A stretch of 41,200 bases of DNA, from positions 1-41,200 of the forward strand of contig JAOZPP010000020.1 of assembly GCA_029932675.1 (NCBI GenBank). The letters run 5' to 3'. The position numbers and the translations under genes are program-made. Below, in pieces: positions 10,173-18,665 of the stretch. This DNA is from a bacterium (GTDB taxonomy: Bacteria > SM23-81 > DAOVCL01). How positions within the stretch are numbered: the stretch's first letter is position 1; each line of letters begins with the position of its first letter. The notes under the pieces are model-generated. The model was not told the origin of the DNA. It searched no databases and saw only the letters and a list, made by a program, of their open reading frames with translations.

Positions 10173-10220
10173 AGAAGAAAAAGAGAGCCCCACAGGCCTT
10201 CTAAGCTTGTGGAGCTCTCT
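10173..10220 (-). terminator. Terminator between convergent genes, best oriented for the Thr-Cys repeat gene
   Basis: An imperfect hairpin at 10182-10220 (AGAGAGC arm pairing with GCTCTCT, then CCACA/TGTGG) is followed on the minus strand by a T-rich tract (TTTTTCTTC). It lies in the 98-bp gap between the FG-GAP gene (plus) and the Thr-Cys repeat gene (minus) and could serve both. Confidence 0.65.
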
Positions 10221-10252: not shown

Positions 10253-12511
10253 TTACCTTACCAGAACCATCTTCGTCGTCGAGGTGAATCCACCAGCAGT
10301 GATCTTACAGAGATAGGTTCCACTGGCTACCCTCTGACCCTGTTCATTCCTCCCATCCCAAGTAGCGGTGTAGGTTCCAGCCAGTTTATATTCGTTGATC
10401 AAGGTCTTGACCAACTGTCCCCTGAGGTTGTATACCCGCAGGGTTACCTGGCAGTCCTCAGGCACGCCAAACTCCACTGTAGTGGATGGGTTAAATGGGT
10501 TAGGATAGTTCTGGCGTAACTGGTAGCCCTCTGGCATCAGTTGCTGCATCTGCTCCTCCTCTACACCCACGCATACCGGGAGGCAGGTTGGACTACCGTC
10601 ACAGGTAGGACCTGCGGCACAGGTAGGCATCCCCGGAGTGCAAGTAAGGGGCGCACAGGTAGCCGCCCCATTGCAGGTGGGGCCTCCCGCGCAGGTGAGG
10701 GCGACACAGGTCTGGTTGCCATCACAAGTTGGCTGTGCTGGGCTACAAGTGGGCATAGCCGGATCACAGGTGGGGTTGACAACATCACAAGTCGGCATTG
10801 GCCCTCCACAGGTCACATCCTGGCAGGTGAAGTTAGGGGCACAGGTCTCGCTACCGTCACAGGTAGGTGATGCCGGATCGCAGGTAGGCATACCTGGGTC
10901 ACAGGTCTCGTATAATCCACAAGTATAATTTTCATCGCAGGTAAGATAACCAGTGCAAGTTTCGCTGCCATCGCAAGTTTCGCTGCCATCACAGGTAGGC
11001 GATGCCGGATCGCAGGTAGGCATACCCGGATCACAGGTCAGATAGTCTGGATCACAGGTGATAGTCCCGTCGCAGGTAATCATACCGTAACAAGTGGAGT
11101 AAGGCGCACAGGTCTGAGCCCCATCACAGGTAGCTCTACCATCACAGGTGACCATATCCGGATCACAGGTCACACTGCCGTCGCAGGTGGGTTGCTGGGG
11201 ATCACAGGTGGGGCTGCCATCACAGGTCTCGGTCATATCACAGGTCTCGCTACCGTCACAGGTAGGGCCACCCTGGCAGGTATTGTAACCTGTGCAAGTC
11301 AAACTTGCGTCACAGGTCTGGGTCCCATCACAGGTGGGGGACATATCACAGGTCTGGCTGCCGTCACAGGTAGGGCCACCCTGGCAGGTGTTGTAACCTG
11401 TGCAAGTTGGACTGGTGTCACAGGTCTCCACCCCTTCGCAGGTTTCATTGGGAGCACAGGTTGCCGATCCATCACAGGTCTGGTAGTCCTGACAGGTCGG
11501 ACTAGCATCACAGGTCTCCATGCCATCACAGGTGAGGTAGGGGGTACAAGTAAGGGCCTCACCCATACAGGTATGACTCCCATCACAGGTCACCTCTGTC
11601 CCTAAGCAGGTCTCGGACTGATTGCAGGTCGGTGTGCCATTGCAGGTCGGATAGCCTGAACAGGTGTTAGAAAGTGCACAGGTCTCGGTGCCGTCGCAGG
11701 TTGAGCCTCCATCACAGGTCGGACAGCCCTGACAGGTGGGACTATATGCATCGCAAGTGGGGGCATACGGATCGCAGGTTAGCTCGAAATTGTCGCAGGT
11801 ATACATATTTGGATCACAAGTCTGAACCCCTCCTATACACGTTGGCTGGCCGGGCTCACAGGTAAAATGATACAGACAAGTGGGGCCGTTGCTGTCGCAG
11901 GTGGGCATCGATGGATCACAGGTCTCGTACGGAAGGGGTTGACAGGTCTCCGTCCCATCACAGGTAGGACTACCAGCTTGACAGGTGTAGTTGGGGGAAC
12001 AGGTCTGCCCCTGGAGACAGGTCTCTGAGGTCCATTCGCAGGTAGGCATCGGCTCACAAGTGGGGAGGTAGGGCTCACAGGTAAGTTGAGGAGGGTTATA
12101 GGTGAGATTCCTTGCACAAGTATACCCAGCGTTATCGCAGGTAAAACTTCCATCACAGGTGGGTGCACCCTGTATACAGGTGAGATTCGGAGCGCAGGTT
12201 GCTCCACCAGTGCAGGTCTCTGTCCCATCACAGGTCGCACCAGCATAGGTGGGATTAAGGGGAGCCGGGGGGCTCCTATCGCCCGAGCGGGACATCCGGC
12301 AGACTTTACCCTGATGGCCCCGATTCGCGTTCATAACTGGAGGGGTATGAATTTGCTGCTCCAGGTTTGCTTTAGCCAACTCCAGGGAATGCTGAAAGAG
12401 CGGGGAACTCACTACCCTTTCATCCTCAGTCCTCGCCATGGAAAAGAGAAGGAGAACTGCCATAAGTGCGGGCAACCAAAGGATTACCGCCTTGCCTTTA
12501 TCAATTTTCAC
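10253..12511 (-). CDS. Secreted Thr-Cys tandem-repeat protein with FlgD-like C-terminal domain; function unknown
   Basis: 752 residues. An N-terminal signal segment (AVILWLPALMAVLLLFSMA) and a short linker precede residues 90-647, which consist of 87 TC dipeptides at intervals of mostly 6 or 7 residues (units such as TCDGSET, TCDASP, TCTGYN, TCDPGMP). The protein has about 90 cysteines. From C328 to C436 the spacing is exactly 6 residues, 18 times running. The end (from about residue 663) is a FlgD-like sorting domain: RQNYPNPFNPSTTVEFGV, WDGRNEQGQRVASGTYLC, TKMVLVR. The start is GTG with a very strong AAGGAGGTGA about 9 nt upstream. I do not recognise a family. The 6-residue Thr-Cys spacing is like the disulfide beta-helix of Tenebrio antifreeze protein; this is an analogy, not demonstrated homology. 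No CxxCH haem motif is present. Confidence 0.88.
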   Translation of the reverse strand: MKIDKGKAVILWLPALMAVLLLFSMARTEDERVVSSPLFQHSLELAKANLEQQIHTPPVMNANRGHQGKVCRMSRSGDRSPPAPLNPTYAGATCDGTETCTGGATCAPNLTCIQGAPTCDGSFTCDNAGYTCARNLTYNPPQLTCEPYLPTCEPMPTCEWTSETCLQGQTCSPNYTCQAGSPTCDGTETCQPLPYETCDPSMPTCDSNGPTCLYHFTCEPGQPTCIGGVQTCDPNMYTCDNFELTCDPYAPTCDAYSPTCQGCPTCDGGSTCDGTETCALSNTCSGYPTCNGTPTCNQSETCLGTEVTCDGSHTCMGEALTCTPYLTCDGMETCDASPTCQDYQTCDGSATCAPNETCEGVETCDTSPTCTGYNTCQGGPTCDGSQTCDMSPTCDGTQTCDASLTCTGYNTCQGGPTCDGSETCDMTETCDGSPTCDPQQPTCDGSVTCDPDMVTCDGRATCDGAQTCAPYSTCYGMITCDGTITCDPDYLTCDPGMPTCDPASPTCDGSETCDGSETCTGYLTCDENYTCGLYETCDPGMPTCDPASPTCDGSETCAPNFTCQDVTCGGPMPTCDVVNPTCDPAMPTCSPAQPTCDGNQTCVALTCAGGPTCNGAATCAPLTCTPGMPTCAAGPTCDGSPTCLPVCVGVEEEQMQQLMPEGYQLRQNYPNPFNPSTTVEFGVPEDCQVTLRVYNLRGQLVKTLINEYKLAGTYTATWDGRNEQGQRVASGTYLCKITAGGFTSTTKMVLVR
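10571..12244 (-). repeat. Coding minisatellite: 18/21-bp units encoding Thr-Cys repeats
   Basis: The plus strand shows 'atcacaggt'-type units (ACCTGTGAT in the coding sense) about every 18 or 21 bp across 1.7 kb. Higher-order copies are visible. The block at 11345-11404 recurs almost identically at 11237-11296 (108-bp offset). The block at 10973-11035 recurs at 10841-10903 (132-bp offset), encoding the same 21 residues. This points to growth by tandem duplication. Confidence 0.9.
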
Positions 12512-12626
12512 TCTTTTTCACCTCCTTTCCGTTGAATTTTGGGAATGTTTTCTCATACCATCCCCCTTTTTGGAGATTAAGATTCCCGGAAATCGCTCCA
12601 TAACCGCTAAGTTCACCGCCTCAGAA

Positions 12627-12910
12627 CAGGGGTTCTCACCCCTGAATTTTTGATGAGATTAACTCCTTAATGAACACAAAAAGCCGGGGCACTGACAAAA
12701 GAACTGGTGTCCCAATTCCTGGGTGGCCCGGCATTACAACAAAATCCCCCCCTACCTGATTTCCAAACACCCCTAAAACCGCGGCTTTGCATTCCTCCCC
12801 TTTCTTAAGGGTTAAAGACTACATCCCACATCAACTGCAAGCAATTTAGCAAATAACAATGTAAGATGGGAGTGGTTCATCAGTGAAATCTGAGGTGCTT
12901 TAACCCGACT
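12627..12910 (-). ncRNA. Structured 5' leader RNA of the Thr-Cys repeat gene (riboswitch-like)
   Basis: A good promoter at 12918-12946 puts the transcript start about 400 nt before the GTG. The leader contains, in order: a CCCTT/AAGGG hairpin, the block ATGCAAAGCCGCGGTTTT (12776-12793), an intrinsic-terminator hairpin (12678-12732), a perfect 7-bp stem CAGGGGT/ACCCCTG closed by a GAGA tetraloop (12627-12644), and then the strong ribosome binding site at about 12519-12531. GCAAAGCC followed later by GCCGGGCCACC recalls the core of class-I cyclic-di-GMP riboswitches, but I cannot fold the full aptamer, so the class is unassigned. Confidence 0.45.
12678..12732 (-). terminator. Intrinsic terminator/attenuator inside the leader
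   Basis: The outer stem GCCGGG (12732-12727) pairs with CCCGGC (12688-12683), with inner pairing around CCCA/TGGG, and is followed by TTTTT (12682-12678). It lies about 170 nt upstream of the start codon in the same transcript, as expected for an attenuator. Confidence 0.6.
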
Positions 12911-12917
12911 GAACTTA

Positions 12918-12946
12918 AATATACATCAAAAAGCCCATTTTGGCAA
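12918..12946 (-). promoter_or_regulatory. Sigma70-type promoter of the Thr-Cys repeat gene
   Basis: TTGCCA (12946-12941) and TATATT (12923-12918) are separated by exactly 17 nt, just beyond the stop of the upstream minus-strand gene. The spacing and -10 box are the same as in the promoter at 18172-18200. Confidence 0.7.
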
Positions 12947-12966
12947 GAACTTTTTTAAGTTTATCA

Positions 12967-15504
12967 CTACCTACCCCTATGACTTGGGATTAGATAAGGA
13001 AGTTGTAGCTTTCCGCCGAAGGATTTTATAGGGGGTTTTCCCTGATTCAGTCCCATTAACCTCCTGAAGATGAAGAACTCCATTTCATTGATCTTAATCT
13101 GCTCTGGAGTGGGGGTCACGCCAGTGTGGCCCATCGACCTGGTATTAAACAAAGAGGAATTGGCAAAAACCATAATCTTTCCCTTCCCCCATTCTTTCTC
13201 CACCAGAACTGCCCCTCCATTCCTTAACCGCAACACAGGGGTCCCTCCAGTCACTCGGCCGGGATTTCTGGCTGTGGCTACTACCCTTAGCGAATCGTCA
13301 TAAATTGGCAAGGTCCGCGGGGGGAGTAACCCAATCTCCAAGCCGAATAAGGTGAGGAGTTGGTTGGCTGTGGATCGGCGGTTTGTAGGGTCATCCAACA
13401 CCAGAACCCTACCTCCCCTTTCCACGTATTCGGAGACCAAATCTACATCTTGAATAGAAAAAGGCTTCTGGGGTTCGATTACCACTACAGCATCTCCCTC
13501 CCTAATGGCCCCATCCAATTTAGAATATGCTTTGGGCACGAATCCCAACCTCTGCGTCCAGACAAAGAAAGTATGAAAGTTGTTATCCTGATTGCTCCCT
13601 AGTCTGAGGGAGGGTATAAAAAAGTCAGAATGTTCCTGCTCAAAAGCGATCCTGGTGTATTTGGTATGGGGAGTTGGAATGGGGTAAAACTTATCGTAAT
13701 TAAGGAAGGAAACCACCCTGAGAGCTATAGGAGAGGCCATCATAATGCCACCCAAAAGGAAAAAGGCCAGGGTCTCCTTTGCCACCTTAGAGCCAGCACG
13801 GATCGATAAGTACCCACACAAAGCAAATAGGATGAAGAAGATCCAGTTGAGGAAAGAATACTTGTTTCTTCTATTCAACCATTCGATGGTTCCCAAGGCA
13901 AGTTCGGGTTTTCCTGGAATGAACATAAAGAAGTTGGAAAAAACAGTGCTGTCGGTGAATCCCACCACCCTTCCCCGGCCATACTTTCTGGCCACGGCCT
14001 GCAGGAAAAGTCCAAAATCATAATCCTTGTAACTCTGTCCTTTGGCTGGGAAGAAGCTCCTCTGGGAGTAGTCCAAGGGTAAAGTCCGCAGCTTATTGCC
14101 CACAATCACCCCTTGGGCAAGCAGTGATGCACCTATAGTGCACGAGGTGGCAAAGAGAAAGGGGGGCATATGGGCCACAATGGGATGGGGCAAGACTCCT
14201 GGCCGTCTGTAGACGGAAAGGGCGGAAGTAGCGAGGTCATAGGTAGAGTCGAATCTGAAGTGGAAACCGAACAGACGGGCAAGCTGGTTTAAGTAACCGC
14301 TGGAACCGAAAACATTGGTGTGGTCACCAATTAAGTAGAGACCACCTCCCGCGCGAACGAAGTCCCTGATGGCGGCAATTTCCTCTTGGAGGAGGGCTTC
14401 CGTAGGGGTTTTGATGATCAAAACATCGTAGTTGCTGAGGAGTTCTTTGGTCAATTTCTCATGGCCTCGGCTAATTTTGTAATAGTAGCCCAGAAATTCG
14501 GCTAAACAATAATAATTATAACCCGATTTTCGCCCATACCACTTGGTGTCGAACTCCTGTTCGGTCCACTCCCAATCACTATGGAATTCATCAATTAATA
14601 CTCTTCCGGCCTTCTTCTCCCCTGGATCTTGAAAACCGAAAGCAAAGAGGAAAAAGAAAGTGCTCAGAAAAGCTAGGCCAAAAACTGAGACATACTTTAA
14701 GGGAGTGACTTCCCCAAGGGTTAAGGTCAAGTTGGTTTTAGCTGCCGGTATCCATCTGGCCAGGAGGAGAAAAAGGGGGAGGAATGTGACCATTGTAACA
14801 AGAGGAGACCAATAACAATTTAACCGATTAGTGGAAAGCACAACAAGAATCAGAAAGATGTGACGAACGAGGGGGAAGACAACCAATAGAGAGGCAAGGA
14901 TGAGCAAACTTCTTCTCCAGGATTTGGAGAGGAAGAGTAGAACAAATCCACCGATAAGGGTGAGAATGACGAGCAGGAGGCCAAGTCTCTGCCAAGTGGT
15001 GATGAAGTAGAAGATATCAACCACCCGAGGGACATATATGATGCCTTGGTTAAGATAGGCATTAACTCCAATCAGCTTCAGTCCTCTACAGACTAAGGGA
15101 GCAAGGACATCAACCCGATGATAACGAGATCCCAGGATGTAGTATAAGGAAATGGCCAAATTCTGAAAGAAAAGTATGACTCCACTAAAAAAGAGTCCAA
15201 GGAGAAGCGATGTAATTCGCCTAAAATACCGCCTCAAAGGGGAAAGGGCAAGACTGGCCAAGATAAGCAGACTTCCCAGATTATGAGGAAAGGGGAGGAG
15301 GAAGATAAACAGGAGAAGGGGAATACCTAACAGGTAGTGCTTCACCGAAGGGGTAGACGCTTTTGCCCGCCAAAAGGCGAATGTGTTGAAAAGAATTCCA
15401 CCTATGAGACACGGTATCCAATACCCAGATGCATCTGCAAAGATAGGCAAGGTGAATAACCAGGTTGAGGAAAGTAAAAAAAGACCAATCCAGAGAAGGT
15501 TCAT
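12967..15504 (-). CDS. Membrane protein with exosortase-like region (no catalytic Cys) fused to two amidotransferase-like domains (paralogue 2)
   Basis: 845 residues. Residues 1-290 are a multi-pass membrane region. Within it LIGVNAYLNQGIIYVP (144-159), then a hydrophobic run, SKSWRRSLLILASLLVVFPL and VRHIFLIL follow the order of exosortase/EpsH proteins. However, the place of the catalytic CSG motif reads FITTWQRL, so the cysteine is absent. Residues 298-530 form a Rossmann/class-I amidotransferase-like domain (YDVLIIKTP, IRDFVRAGGGLYLIGDHT, GRGRVVGFTDST). Two membrane segments (551-600) and a second similar domain (615-820; VSEYVERGGRVLVLDD, GKGKIMVFANSS) complete it. The first domain resembles DUF4350/GIFT-type non-enzymatic folds; no catalytic Cys-His pair is evident. 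It shares its whole architecture with the gene upstream, 100 nt away on the same strand. Function unknown. Confidence 0.82.
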   Translation of the reverse strand: MNLLWIGLFLLSSTWLFTLPIFADASGYWIPCLIGGILFNTFAFWRAKASTPSVKHYLLGIPLLLFIFLLPFPHNLGSLLILASLALSPLRRYFRRITSLLLGLFFSGVILFFQNLAISLYYILGSRYHRVDVLAPLVCRGLKLIGVNAYLNQGIIYVPRVVDIFYFITTWQRLGLLLVILTLIGGFVLLFLSKSWRRSLLILASLLVVFPLVRHIFLILVVLSTNRLNCYWSPLVTMVTFLPLFLLLARWIPAAKTNLTLTLGEVTPLKYVSVFGLAFLSTFFFLFAFGFQDPGEKKAGRVLIDEFHSDWEWTEQEFDTKWYGRKSGYNYYCLAEFLGYYYKISRGHEKLTKELLSNYDVLIIKTPTEALLQEEIAAIRDFVRAGGGLYLIGDHTNVFGSSGYLNQLARLFGFHFRFDSTYDLATSALSVYRRPGVLPHPIVAHMPPFLFATSCTIGASLLAQGVIVGNKLRTLPLDYSQRSFFPAKGQSYKDYDFGLFLQAVARKYGRGRVVGFTDSTVFSNFFMFIPGKPELALGTIEWLNRRNKYSFLNWIFFILFALCGYLSIRAGSKVAKETLAFFLLGGIMMASPIALRVVSFLNYDKFYPIPTPHTKYTRIAFEQEHSDFFIPSLRLGSNQDNNFHTFFVWTQRLGFVPKAYSKLDGAIREGDAVVVIEPQKPFSIQDVDLVSEYVERGGRVLVLDDPTNRRSTANQLLTLFGLEIGLLPPRTLPIYDDSLRVVATARNPGRVTGGTPVLRLRNGGAVLVEKEWGKGKIMVFANSSLFNTRSMGHTGVTPTPEQIKINEMEFFIFRRLMGLNQGKPPIKSFGGKLQLPYLIPSHRGR

Positions 15505-15604: not shown

Positions 15605-18022
15605 TTATATTTTTGTTCGGATGAGAAAATCATTCCCCGTTTTAAAATCCCTTCGGCTTCCAGCCCCTCGCTTCTCCCCCTTTACCTTCCTTTCTATGAG
15701 CTCCTTAATGAACATAATGTTGCCTAGGTGATAGGTCTTCCTCCCCTCCAGATTTTCGTTGAAGAAGAAATGGGAGTCAGCGACCAGAAAGACCCCTCCC
15801 GCGCCTATCCGTTTGTAAACCATAACCGGATATCCCCACCTTTTGGCAATAACCTCTACCTGGGTAGTGTCTGCCCTGATGGGGTAGACACAGTGGAACC
15901 TCACCTTTTGACCATAAGCGAGGGACTCTCCCGGCCCTAAGGGAACATCTTCGATATCCAGGTTAAAGTGCTGGAGCAGCTTCCAGGAGGGCAACCTCTC
16001 CTCCCAACCAATGCTAAGCATCAAAAAACCGCCAGCGTCAACATATCCATCTATAGCCTTGATCTCCTTAGCAGAAAATGGCTTCATCGGGGAAAAGAGG
16101 ACGAATATTTTGCTTTCGGGAAGCCTTTTAGAAGAAAATTGACTTATCATCAGCGGGAAAAAACCGTTTCTCATCAGGTTATATTCAAATCCACCTACTG
16201 ACTTATCCTGCCAGCTCATCAGGTCGAACAATTCCCCATGAGAGCGATCGATGTGGGCGATGTTTCCGGTAAGTCTTACCCCCTCCCAACCACGTCCATA
16301 GAGGTAGTCTGAAATCGGGGACACAACCAGTAAGAGGGTTCCCCCGGCCATGAGAGCAACGCTTGCTGGGGAAAGAAAGAGGGCAAAAATAGCCCCTAAA
16401 AAGAGAAGCAACGATATAAGTAAACGGTGCTTACTCAAGAAATCAGAACTTTCTTCTTTGGTCAGCCAATCGAAGACCCGATCCACAAAATCATGGCTCT
16501 TCACTAATGCCCCATTTTGAAATGGAGAGGTATCGCCAAAGACCATCACTTTCCCTTTGCCGTATTTGGCTTCAGCTACAAGGATGACATCTCCGAGTCG
16601 CTCACCGGGGCTATATCTTCTGTCGCCCAAAAAGGCACCTTTGGTGTTGAAAAGGTTGCCCATATCAGAAAAAGCATATCTTCCCACAATCACTGGTTTG
16701 GCTGGATGGTGAATGGAGAGGGAGGCTCCAATCCAAACCTGAACTTGGCTTTCATCCCCGATCCCATAGTTGATGGGGTGCTTAAAGAACTCCATAGTAT
16801 TGATCCACGCCCGCCTATTATTCTGAGCACAATCAAAATTGAACTCAATTTTCACCGGCCTCAACAACCTATTAAATGGATCTCGGATCCCCTTCACCGC
16901 CGTATGGTCACCCAAGGCGAGGAGAGAACCACCTTTGGCCACAAAATCCCAAATAATTTTGCTCTCCTCCTCACTAAACCTCTCCATTAGATTTATAACT
17001 ACCAAGGTGCTCGCCTCTCTTAGGCCCTCCTCGCTAATTAAGGCCTTCTTGACTTTATAACCCCTCATTTCCAAGTATTTGGGGAGATAGCCAAACATAC
17101 CTCCGCTTCTGTCGCCATAATAACCAAAAACTGGTGTCCGCCAATTGAGGTAGCCTTTGTCATAAAGGAGAATTTCCCCAGTATTCGTCCCTTGAGATTG
17201 AGGCATTACCAGGAGGATCAAAGAGAGTATAAGTAATCCAAAGCCGATTAAAGGCTTAGTTTTGGAACTGGAGAAGAGAGGGACCCTCTTCACTGGAGTT
17301 CTTCTGAAATAGAAATATGTAGGCAGACAGGCAAGAAGGAAGAAAATAATCTGCGAATGGAGATGAGTAATCTCTCTTGCTTTAACGAATTTCAGCAAAA
17401 GCGTAGCAAGAGGAAAATGGATGACAATATAGGCAACCTCAGCGAAGAGGATAGACAAGAGGAGAATCGCAGGCAACCAAAGGTTCTTCCTTCTCTCAGA
17501 AAGAAGAAACAGTGATAGATAGAAAAAAGCAAAGAGCAAGAGGATATGAACCCCCGCAGCGTTGCTTCCTAAGAGGAGCCCCCTGCCCAGCAGGATATCT
17601 GCACATCTGGAGAGGAACAGGGCAACCTCTTGCTCCATCTGCCATATTTGGGGGATATATTGATAAGCGAAGATGAAGAATGCGAACAAAACGGATGTGA
17701 GCAGCAATACCGGAAGCTCACCTTCATATCTATCATTTCCTCTAAGGGTAAGGTCAAAGAAGAAAAGGAAAAAGGGGAAAGCCATCAGTCGAGGGATCGT
17801 TCCCCAGCTCGGGAGGAGGGTAGCTGCGATAAAAGCCAAAGCAGCCAAAATCCCCCTCCAAAGATTCTTTCTTCTCAATCTAAAGGGAAGATAGGTAAAA
17901 ACAAAGCCTGCTAAAAGGAGGAGGATAAATAGATTATTGAATTCATACCTTAGGTTTCCAAGGTCGTTAGTAAGAAGCAGAAGGGCCAACAACAGTATGG
18001 GAATTCTGATAAACCTTTTCAA
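15605..18022 (-). CDS. Membrane protein with degenerate exosortase-like region fused to two amidotransferase-like domains (paralogue 1)
   Basis: 805 residues from TTG 18022. The multi-pass N-terminal half includes LLLGSNAAGVHILLLF at the position of the exosortase CSG motif (no Cys) and ITHLHSQIIFFLLACLP resembling the His-containing last helix. A soluble domain follows (about residues 285-525: LVVINLMERFSEEES, FVAKGGSLLALGDHT, GKGKVMVFGDTSPF). Then comes a membrane hairpin (about 532-572) and a second domain (about 610-785: IDGYVDAGGFLMLSIGW, GAGGVFLVADSHFF). An ATG at 18046 lies inside the -10 box TATAAT of a strong promoter, so it cannot be the start of that transcript. TTG 18022 with AAGGGGG 5 nt upstream fits. 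It is the first gene of the two-gene unit with its downstream paralogue. Confidence 0.82.
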   Translation of the reverse strand: MKRFIRIPILLLALLLLTNDLGNLRYEFNNLFILLLLAGFVFTYLPFRLRRKNLWRGILAALAFIAATLLPSWGTIPRLMAFPFFLFFFDLTLRGNDRYEGELPVLLLTSVLFAFFIFAYQYIPQIWQMEQEVALFLSRCADILLGRGLLLGSNAAGVHILLLFAFFYLSLFLLSERRKNLWLPAILLLSILFAEVAYIVIHFPLATLLLKFVKAREITHLHSQIIFFLLACLPTYFYFRRTPVKRVPLFSSSKTKPLIGFGLLILSLILLVMPQSQGTNTGEILLYDKGYLNWRTPVFGYYGDRSGGMFGYLPKYLEMRGYKVKKALISEEGLREASTLVVINLMERFSEEESKIIWDFVAKGGSLLALGDHTAVKGIRDPFNRLLRPVKIEFNFDCAQNNRRAWINTMEFFKHPINYGIGDESQVQVWIGASLSIHHPAKPVIVGRYAFSDMGNLFNTKGAFLGDRRYSPGERLGDVILVAEAKYGKGKVMVFGDTSPFQNGALVKSHDFVDRVFDWLTKEESSDFLSKHRLLISLLLFLGAIFALFLSPASVALMAGGTLLLVVSPISDYLYGRGWEGVRLTGNIAHIDRSHGELFDLMSWQDKSVGGFEYNLMRNGFFPLMISQFSSKRLPESKIFVLFSPMKPFSAKEIKAIDGYVDAGGFLMLSIGWEERLPSWKLLQHFNLDIEDVPLGPGESLAYGQKVRFHCVYPIRADTTQVEVIAKRWGYPVMVYKRIGAGGVFLVADSHFFFNENLEGRKTYHLGNIMFIKELIERKVKGEKRGAGSRRDFKTGNDFLIRTKI

Positions 18023-18171: not shown

Positions 18172-18200
18172 TTGACAGAATGCCCCCAAAGCAGTATATT
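18172..18200 (+). promoter_or_regulatory. Near-consensus sigma70-type promoter upstream of the structured RNA
   Basis: TTGACA (18172-18177), a 17-nt spacer and TATATT (18195-18200) followed by TAAAC. It fires rightward toward the RNA at 18207-18333 and the secreted-protein gene at 18685. Confidence 0.75.
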
Positions 18201-18206
18201 TAAACT

Positions 18207-18333
18207 GGCAATTTTAAAGAGAGGTTAAAATGCCCAAAGCCACGGCTTTGATAGAATCCCCCCATAAGAGGTCTTATGGTGCGAGTTACATAAGGCTGAG
18301 TCAGGGAGTTTTTTGCCTGGATCAGCCTTTTTT
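18207..18333 (+). ncRNA. Structured small RNA or leader with intrinsic terminator
   Basis: Just after the promoter come three hairpins: CAAAGC/GCTTTG with loop CACG (18235-18250), CCATAAG/CTTATGG with loop AGGT (18262-18279), and the terminator (18292-18333). The first hairpin lies in ATGCCCAAAGCCACGG, the counterpart of ATGCAAAGCCGCGG in the leader of the Thr-Cys gene. Downstream, at about 18371-18384, the same GGAAAGGAGGTGA ribosome-binding sequence appears, but without a start codon at proper distance. It is either a riboswitch-like leader of the gene at 18685 or a separate about 127-nt RNA. Confidence 0.5.
18292..18333 (+). terminator. Intrinsic terminator of the structured RNA
   Basis: AAGGCTGA (18292-18299) pairs with TCAGCCTT (18322-18329); an inner CAGG/CCTG pairing lies within. 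A run of six T (18328-18333) follows the stem. Confidence 0.8.
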
Positions 18334-18421
18334 GGTGGCCGTTTTTGCCCGAAGGCGGAGACGAGTGAGAAGGAAAGGAGGTGACACCTGAGTAAACCTA
18401 TAGTTCAGAGGAAGAGAGGGG

Positions 18422-18478
18422 GTGATAAAGGATACTGCAGGCTCCTGTTCGCGAATATTCAGAACCTTTAATAATTAA
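18422..18478 (+). other. Very small open frame between the RNA terminator and the inverted-repeat element; doubtful
   Basis: GTG 18422 opens an 18-codon frame (MIKDTAGSCSRIFRTFNN) preceded by GAGGAAGAGAGGGG. It ends with TAA exactly at the edge of the inverted-repeat element, so it could be the stump of a gene interrupted by that element, or chance. There is no homology evidence. Confidence 0.15.
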
Positions 18479-18665
18479 CCCGGATTATTCACAAATTCAC
18501 AGCACCTCTCAAATCGCTGAGGCCTCTTGCTGGAGGGACTCCGCCTTAGCGGAGTCCTGAGGAAGCGGACAGACATAAATGTCTGTCCCTACGAAACAAA
18601 TACACAAATCATTGGCCTTGAAAAATTTATGCCAATTCATTTTCAGTTCATGAATAATTCGGGTT
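18477..18665. mobile_element. MITE-like element with terminal inverted repeats (copy 2), about 189 bp
   Basis: The left end AACCCGGATTATTCACAAA matches the reverse complement of the right end (AACCCGAATTATTCATGAA) at 16 of 19 positions. These termini match those of the element at 7231-7301. No transposase is encoded; the interior carries two perfect hairpins (18536-18588). The right end abuts the ribosome binding site of the gene at 18685. No convincing target-site duplication is seen. Confidence 0.6.
18536..18588. repeat. Two REP-like palindromes inside the element
   Basis: GGACTCCGC/GCGGAGTCC (18536-18557, loop CTTA) and GGACAGACA/TGTCTGTCC (18567-18588, loop TAAA) are both perfect 9-bp stems. 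The second, followed by CTACG, resembles dispersed intergenic palindromes found in many environmental bacterial genomes. Confidence 0.6.

Follow-up and report, generated by a model that had tools for sequence, protein, structure and literature searches.

A possible transcription-attenuated leader, sharing blocks with c-di-GMP-I riboswitches, ahead of a gene for a secreted Thr-Cys repeat protein

The window (the whole stretch of DNA analysed, 41,200 nucleotides) contains an intergenic stretch of 455 nt (12512-12966), which from its sequence is best read, with modest confidence, as the attenuated leader of the Thr-Cys gene that it precedes. Transcription would start near 12911 from a predicted sigma-70-type promoter, giving the gene a 5′ leader of approximately 400 nt. 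Some 230 nt on, RNA polymerase would meet an intrinsic terminator and either stop there or read on to a strong ribosome site and GTG, the approximately 175 nt lying 5′ of the terminator being the likely sensor part. We infer that termination is regulated, and that this is done by a ligand. The leader appears to stand outside the c-di-GMP-I family and is probably one of a kind of attenuated leader used repeatedly by this lineage.

The stretch lies between two minus-strand genes, in agreement with the first-pass annotation, which had placed a leader before the Thr-Cys gene. The upstream gene (12967-15504) codes for an 845-aa ABC-transport-auxiliary-like protein. The Thr-Cys gene (10253-12511) codes for a 752-aa secreted protein with many Thr-Cys repeats, possessing a signal-like N-terminus and a C-terminal FlgD_ig/Por_Secre_tail, the sorting tail of type IX-like secretion, and is closed by a terminator (10183-10219, minus strand) about 70 nt past its stop codon. 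The protein has one Thr-Cys step per 6-7 residues, a spacing that we take to recall the beta-helical insect antifreeze proteins. On the minus strand the order of elements is promoter (12946-12918), the block GGAGGAATGCAAAGCCGCGG (12798-12779), a hairpin with TTTTT (12732-12678), a GAGA-capped stem (12642-12629), GGAAAGGAGGTGA and GTG. Promoter, intrinsic terminator and ribosome binding site thus follow one another on one strand, as in an attenuator.

The promoter-like TTGCCA-17-TATATT picked out at first pass is present 20 nt past the stop codon of the upstream gene. By score alone it is not above chance (3 sites in the scan against 2.1 in shuffles), but it fits the promoter type of the genome itself, in which 69 intergenic TTG[AC]CA/TATATT-like sites were found in 1.2 Mb, mostly with a 17-nt spacer. 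A very similar promoter, TTGCAA-17-TATATTAAAGTTGAG, is found in the sister genome immediately 5′ of a small gene. The ribosome binding site GGAAAGGAGGTGA (12518-12530, minus strand), which had been described as near-perfect, is perfect and lies just 5′ of GTG; the identical 13 letters recur at 18372 in a second leader of the window, termed leader B. Of 21 AAAGGRGGTGA sites in 1.2 Mb of the genome that are complementary to 16S rRNA, perfectly or nearly so, 12 have no suitably spaced start codon and ORF, examples being 18374 in the window, L242:2188 (minus strand), L255:8853 and L263:6780 (minus strand).

The intrinsic terminator, the putative attenuator, was also confirmed. It consists of a long imperfect hairpin, GCCGGGCCAC...GTGCCCCGGC, followed by TTTTT (12678-12732, minus strand), and the hairpin (12732-12683) has a predicted energy of -25.2 kcal/mol, the fifth among 173 candidates in the window, with a local fold z of -2.3. 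It ends approximately 285 nt past the upstream stop codon and 230 nt past the predicted start. For two genes of the window with a clear terminator at their end, the distance from the stop codon is 55-70 nt, and the hairpin is therefore unlikely to serve the upstream gene. Some weight should still be given to an account, on balance unlikely, in which this hairpin merely stops transcripts running in from the upstream operon, or ends a short RNA that starts at the 12946 promoter, with the Thr-Cys gene transcribed from a promoter between 12678 and 12530 and no attenuation. The upstream genes are indeed on the same strand, and the 150 nt from terminator to ribosome site leave room for a promoter; however, a scan of 12678 to 12530 gave no sigma-70-type site, the distance from stop codon to terminator is long for this window, and leader B has the same layout with no upstream gene that could be read through.

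Leader B (18172-18663, plus strand) precedes a sorting-tail gene and has TTGACA-17-TATATT at 18172-18200, CAAAGCCACGG at 18235-18245 and a terminator at 18294-18333. Its upstream gene is divergent, which leaves the leader as the only possible target of the terminator. The layout of promoter, 120-230 nt, terminator and gene recurs in the genome before secreted sorting-tail proteins, being found in leader B, in the true c-di-GMP-I leader, in a family of leader RNAs termed family U and in other leaders before such proteins. Where sorting-tail genes have at least 150 nt upstream, a terminator occurs in sense in 9 of 32 cases against 2 of 32 in antisense, and for other divergent genes in 8 and 9 of 94 respectively, all of these being small numbers. 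This within-genome comparison upholds the arrangement of an attenuating leader from the earlier proposal of a transcription-attenuating riboswitch, while assignment to c-di-GMP-I did not stand in Rfam.

The leader had also been described as structured, which folding did not bear out. As a whole (409 nt) it is not unusually structured (z -0.91), with 20 of 100 shuffles folding equally well, and the part 5′ of the terminator folds no better than shuffles (z -0.46). Its first bases, GUCGGGU (12903-12909, minus strand), are predicted to pair with the 5′ arm of the terminator as a possible antiterminator, and simulated folding of the nascent RNA suggests that they may hold this arm until the 3′ arm has been made. 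In a weak, post hoc comparison, pairing of the terminator arm with the first 20 nt was equalled in 5 of 200 shuffles, and in 87 of the 200 when any upstream part was allowed as partner, so only the position of the putative antiterminator stands out, not the pairing itself. Such an ordinary fold, together with the lack of conservation among 98 genomes, is what would be expected if promoter, terminator, worn repeat and ribosome site had been assembled by chance with nothing regulatory about them; this is very improbable, as the blocks shared with other leaders are missing from shuffles and the layout is recurrent. Another reading, to which we attach hardly any probability, is a leader-peptide attenuator, in which the position of a ribosome on the Cys codons of a 41-codon ORF (12792-12667) would control the terminator of the Cys-rich gene. 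Directly 5′ of the terminator 5′ arm the ORF carries two Cys codons in a row, and it has GGGGAGG as an SD-like sequence, but its SD-to-ATG distance is too short, short ORFs of this sort arise by chance, and no relative was found in which to look for its conservation.

In the first-pass annotation GCAAAGCC and GCCGGGCCACC were said to recall the class I c-di-GMP core, and an Infernal search with Rfam RF01051 was named as the check. Rfam gave no match for the leader at gathering score, and a search with the stretch by itself (581 nt) brought up no relevant model even at E 10. The membership cut-off of RF01051 is its curated score of 35 bits, and the same search picked up, as a positive control, two genuine c-di-GMP-I riboswitches at other places in the genome (72 and 46 bits); the leader was accordingly rejected as a member of this family. 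The stronger riboswitch (72 bits) has a leader with TTGACA-17-TATATT, terminator arms GCCGGGCTGCC and GGCAGGTCGG and a large sorting-tail protein downstream. A true c-di-GMP-I riboswitch at L233:13950-14042 (G000:C85:33950-34038) has a leader of approximately 400 nt, two terminator-like hairpins and a sorting-tail protein of at least 1897 aa.

The likeness itself does exceed chance, although it does not amount to a full c-di-GMP-I riboswitch. The block GGAGGAATGCAAAGCCGCGG (12779-12798, minus strand) resembles both the c-di-GMP-I core GCAAAGCCNCGG and the family U sequence GGAGGAACAAAGCCACGG. Two c-di-GMP-I-like blocks occur in order in the leader, AAAGCC-N-CGG and then GCCGGGC as a terminator arm, and the conserved order of GCAAAGCCNCGG and AGCCGGGC is present as GCAAAGCC-G-CGG and GCCGGGC, with the A before GCCGGGC being T here. 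Within 1.2 Mb, GGAGG-(0-5)-CAAAGCC-N-CGG is found only in the Thr-Cys leader and two members of family U, against 0.3 expected in shuffles. A composite pattern (AAAGCC-N-CGG, 20-75 nt, GCCGGGC, 10-80 nt, TTTTT) is found there only in the Thr-Cys leader and one U leader, with none in ten shuffles and none in the reversed sequence; its spacing limits were chosen after the leader had been seen, making it supportive and not conclusive. A looser form additionally picks up the true c-di-GMP-I leader. The motif CAAAGCC-N(1,2)-CGG is itself enriched in the genome (36 copies against 7 for the reversed pattern). Outside leaders, CAAAGCC-N-CGG lies mostly within genes or a second repeat, and the intergenic CAAAGCC-N(1,2)-CGG copies belong to this second repeat-like element, the Thr-Cys leader, leader B, a tmRNA-adjacent leader (L170, L180) and the U leaders. 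The second repeated element, of the form GGTGGGCCTTCAGCCTCCACACAAAGCCACGGGAGAAATACGGAAACTTCCAGCCCACC, is closed by a GGTGGGC/GCCCACC helix and also carries the CAAAGCCACGG block (L168:2073, L174:1988 and L178:2045, all minus strand; L179:135 and 3681; L165:869).

Because the AAAGCC-N-CGG block and GCCGGGC as terminator 5′ arm are both found in the true c-di-GMP-I leader of the genome, the Thr-Cys leader is probably related to c-di-GMP-I-type attenuated leaders, though strongly diverged from them, or else mimics them through shared parts. It is improbable that it is a true, very divergent c-di-GMP-I (GEMM-I) riboswitch binding c-di-GMP. The two ordered signature blocks, the like use of GCCGGGC in the terminator and the two real riboswitches in the genome would suit this, but against it stand the empty Rfam search, a gap between blocks of 45 nt compared to 28 in L086, and the lack of a GEMM-like three-way junction in the predicted fold. 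In type I c-di-GMP-I riboswitches P2 is capped by a GNRA tetraloop docking into a P3 receptor (PMC11218506), whereas the sole GNRA-capped stem noted in the leader (12629-12642), left over from a repeat, comes only after the terminator.

This GAGA-capped stem exists as described at first pass, with -12.9 kcal/mol, but not as part of an aptamer. It lies within a decayed copy of a REP-like hairpin (12618-12643, minus strand) that agrees with a member of the family in 23 of 26 positions; among 60 shuffles and 60 other segments of the window, the highest agreement was 19. Three C-to-G differences break the stem of the repeat and generate the GAGA hairpin, and against the covariance model of the repeat (R1) only the exact 14-nt core scores (18 bits). 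This core, AGAACCCCTGTTCT, has eight occurrences in the genome of the window and another eight in the sister genome, as against a single one in all 29 remaining genomes searched, and forms the middle of a 10-bp palindrome whose loop is CCCT. The palindrome stem varies by paired changes (24 cells altered on both sides against 7 in shuffles). Its covariance model found at least 155 and at least 152 copies in the two genomes (G000 and G001), which are lower bounds with 150 candidates scored per genome, and none among the candidates scored in four other genomes. The full palindrome, GAGGTGGCAGAAC-CCCT-GTTCTGCCACC, is genus-specific (G000 and G001), examples being L051:547-578, L074:145-176 and L081:1493-1524. 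Many copies are in inverted pairs and some lie near Y1-transposase genes (e.g., G000:C72, G000:C78, G001:C223), an arrangement that matches REP/BIME elements with TnpA_REP (PMC8266576). The family thus has the high-copy intergenic inverted-pair palindromes and TnpA_REP-like genes of REP elements, and the window copy shares these features only in part. As judged from sequence, the GAGA stem downstream of the terminator is what remains of a REP-like repeat and has no needed role. The finding is a caution that a neat GNRA hairpin in a leader may be a repeat fossil.

A DNA search of 98 genomes found no homologous leader, only short chance matches, matches to the ribosome binding site and the REP-like repeat. 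Without its tail, the Thr-Cys protein has no relative in the phylum, and a wider scan with the protein gave three distant Planctomycetota repeat proteins. For the upstream gene no orthologue was found in the nearest genomes, so synteny yields no second leader.

Family U is a leader RNA of approximately 170 nt with about 20 copies in this genome (G000) and at least three in the sister species (G001). Copies in G000 include L237:15096-15223 and 16189-16321, L261:158-287, L230:5326-5449, L226:15822-15942, L248:6738-6856, L214:1451-1569 and L250:882-1002. Its terminator helix shows covarying pairs, and towards its 3′ end the family can be aligned with the true c-di-GMP-I leader, with which it shares the conserved terminator. 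The two copies searched had no Rfam match, and the family may be a riboswitch, a small RNA or a mobile RNA. It precedes sorting-tail proteins, toxin-antitoxin-like genes and others. With the covariance model of the family (R2), the Thr-Cys leader scored 2.2 and 0 bits against 27-110 bits for U members, and was rejected as a member. No meaningful match to it was found with nhmmer profiles of four leader families (U, two further and c-di-GMP-I), and when it was aligned globally, pair by pair, to U members and to the true riboswitch, the best z among 13 comparisons was 2.8, which is not significant once corrected.

Other leaders were also observed in the genome. One lying directly after tmRNA (L170:786-987, L180:903-1120) is conserved between both species and precedes a large secreted protein; in L170, a helix of the first bases, TATAGGTGGTTTA/TAAACCACCTAT, would exclude the terminator AAACCACC...GGGGTGGTTTTTT. 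Two homologous leaders of approximately 230 nt with terminator ends precede sorting-tail proteins (L226:7400-7174 and L239:13715-13486, both minus strand).

On a wider and speculative reading, which we hold to be rather unlikely as it stands, the Thr-Cys leader, leader B, the tmRNA-adjacent leaders and family U could be branches of an undescribed riboswitch-like group controlling the secreted sorting-tail proteins of this uncultured lineage, with a common c-di-GMP-I-like core block and terminator platform, different sensor parts and possibly new ligands. Should the Thr-Cys leader indeed work as an attenuator, it would belong with the other long leaders by which a little-known lineage seems to control large secreted proteins. 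The c-di-GMP-I-like block across otherwise unrelated leaders, including the many-copy family U, would make the spread and diversification of a riboswitch core testable within one genome, and family U is the most interesting by-product of the analysis.

Compared with known systems, the repeat around the GAGA stem resembles REP/BIME elements with TnpA_REP (RAYT) through its family of inverted-pair palindromes, some by Y1 transposases; the 5′ foot of the palindrome is GAG, not GTAG, and the window copy is worn, with the stem of the repeat broken. With family U, the leader has GGAGGAA-CAAAGCC-R-CGG and GCCGGGC...CCGGCUUUU blocks in common, in the same order, but it lacks the CUCAAG/CUUGAG helix and the AAUAACCA segment. 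From c-di-GMP-I (RF01051) it differs in giving no Rfam match, in that no P2-GNRA and no closing P1 were found, in its longer block gap and in an unrelated 5′ part. However, with the riboswitch at G000:C85:33950-34038 it shares an AAAGC(C/T)-N-CGG block and GCCGGGC as terminator 5′ arm, and that riboswitch likewise has a promoter (TTGACA-17-TATATT) and a long leader before a large sorting-tail protein. The Bc1 c-di-GMP riboswitch, which has a long expression platform (PMC11218506), possesses, unlike the Thr-Cys leader, a recognisable aptamer and two terminators; the two are alike in having a long leader with termination before a distant ribosome site.
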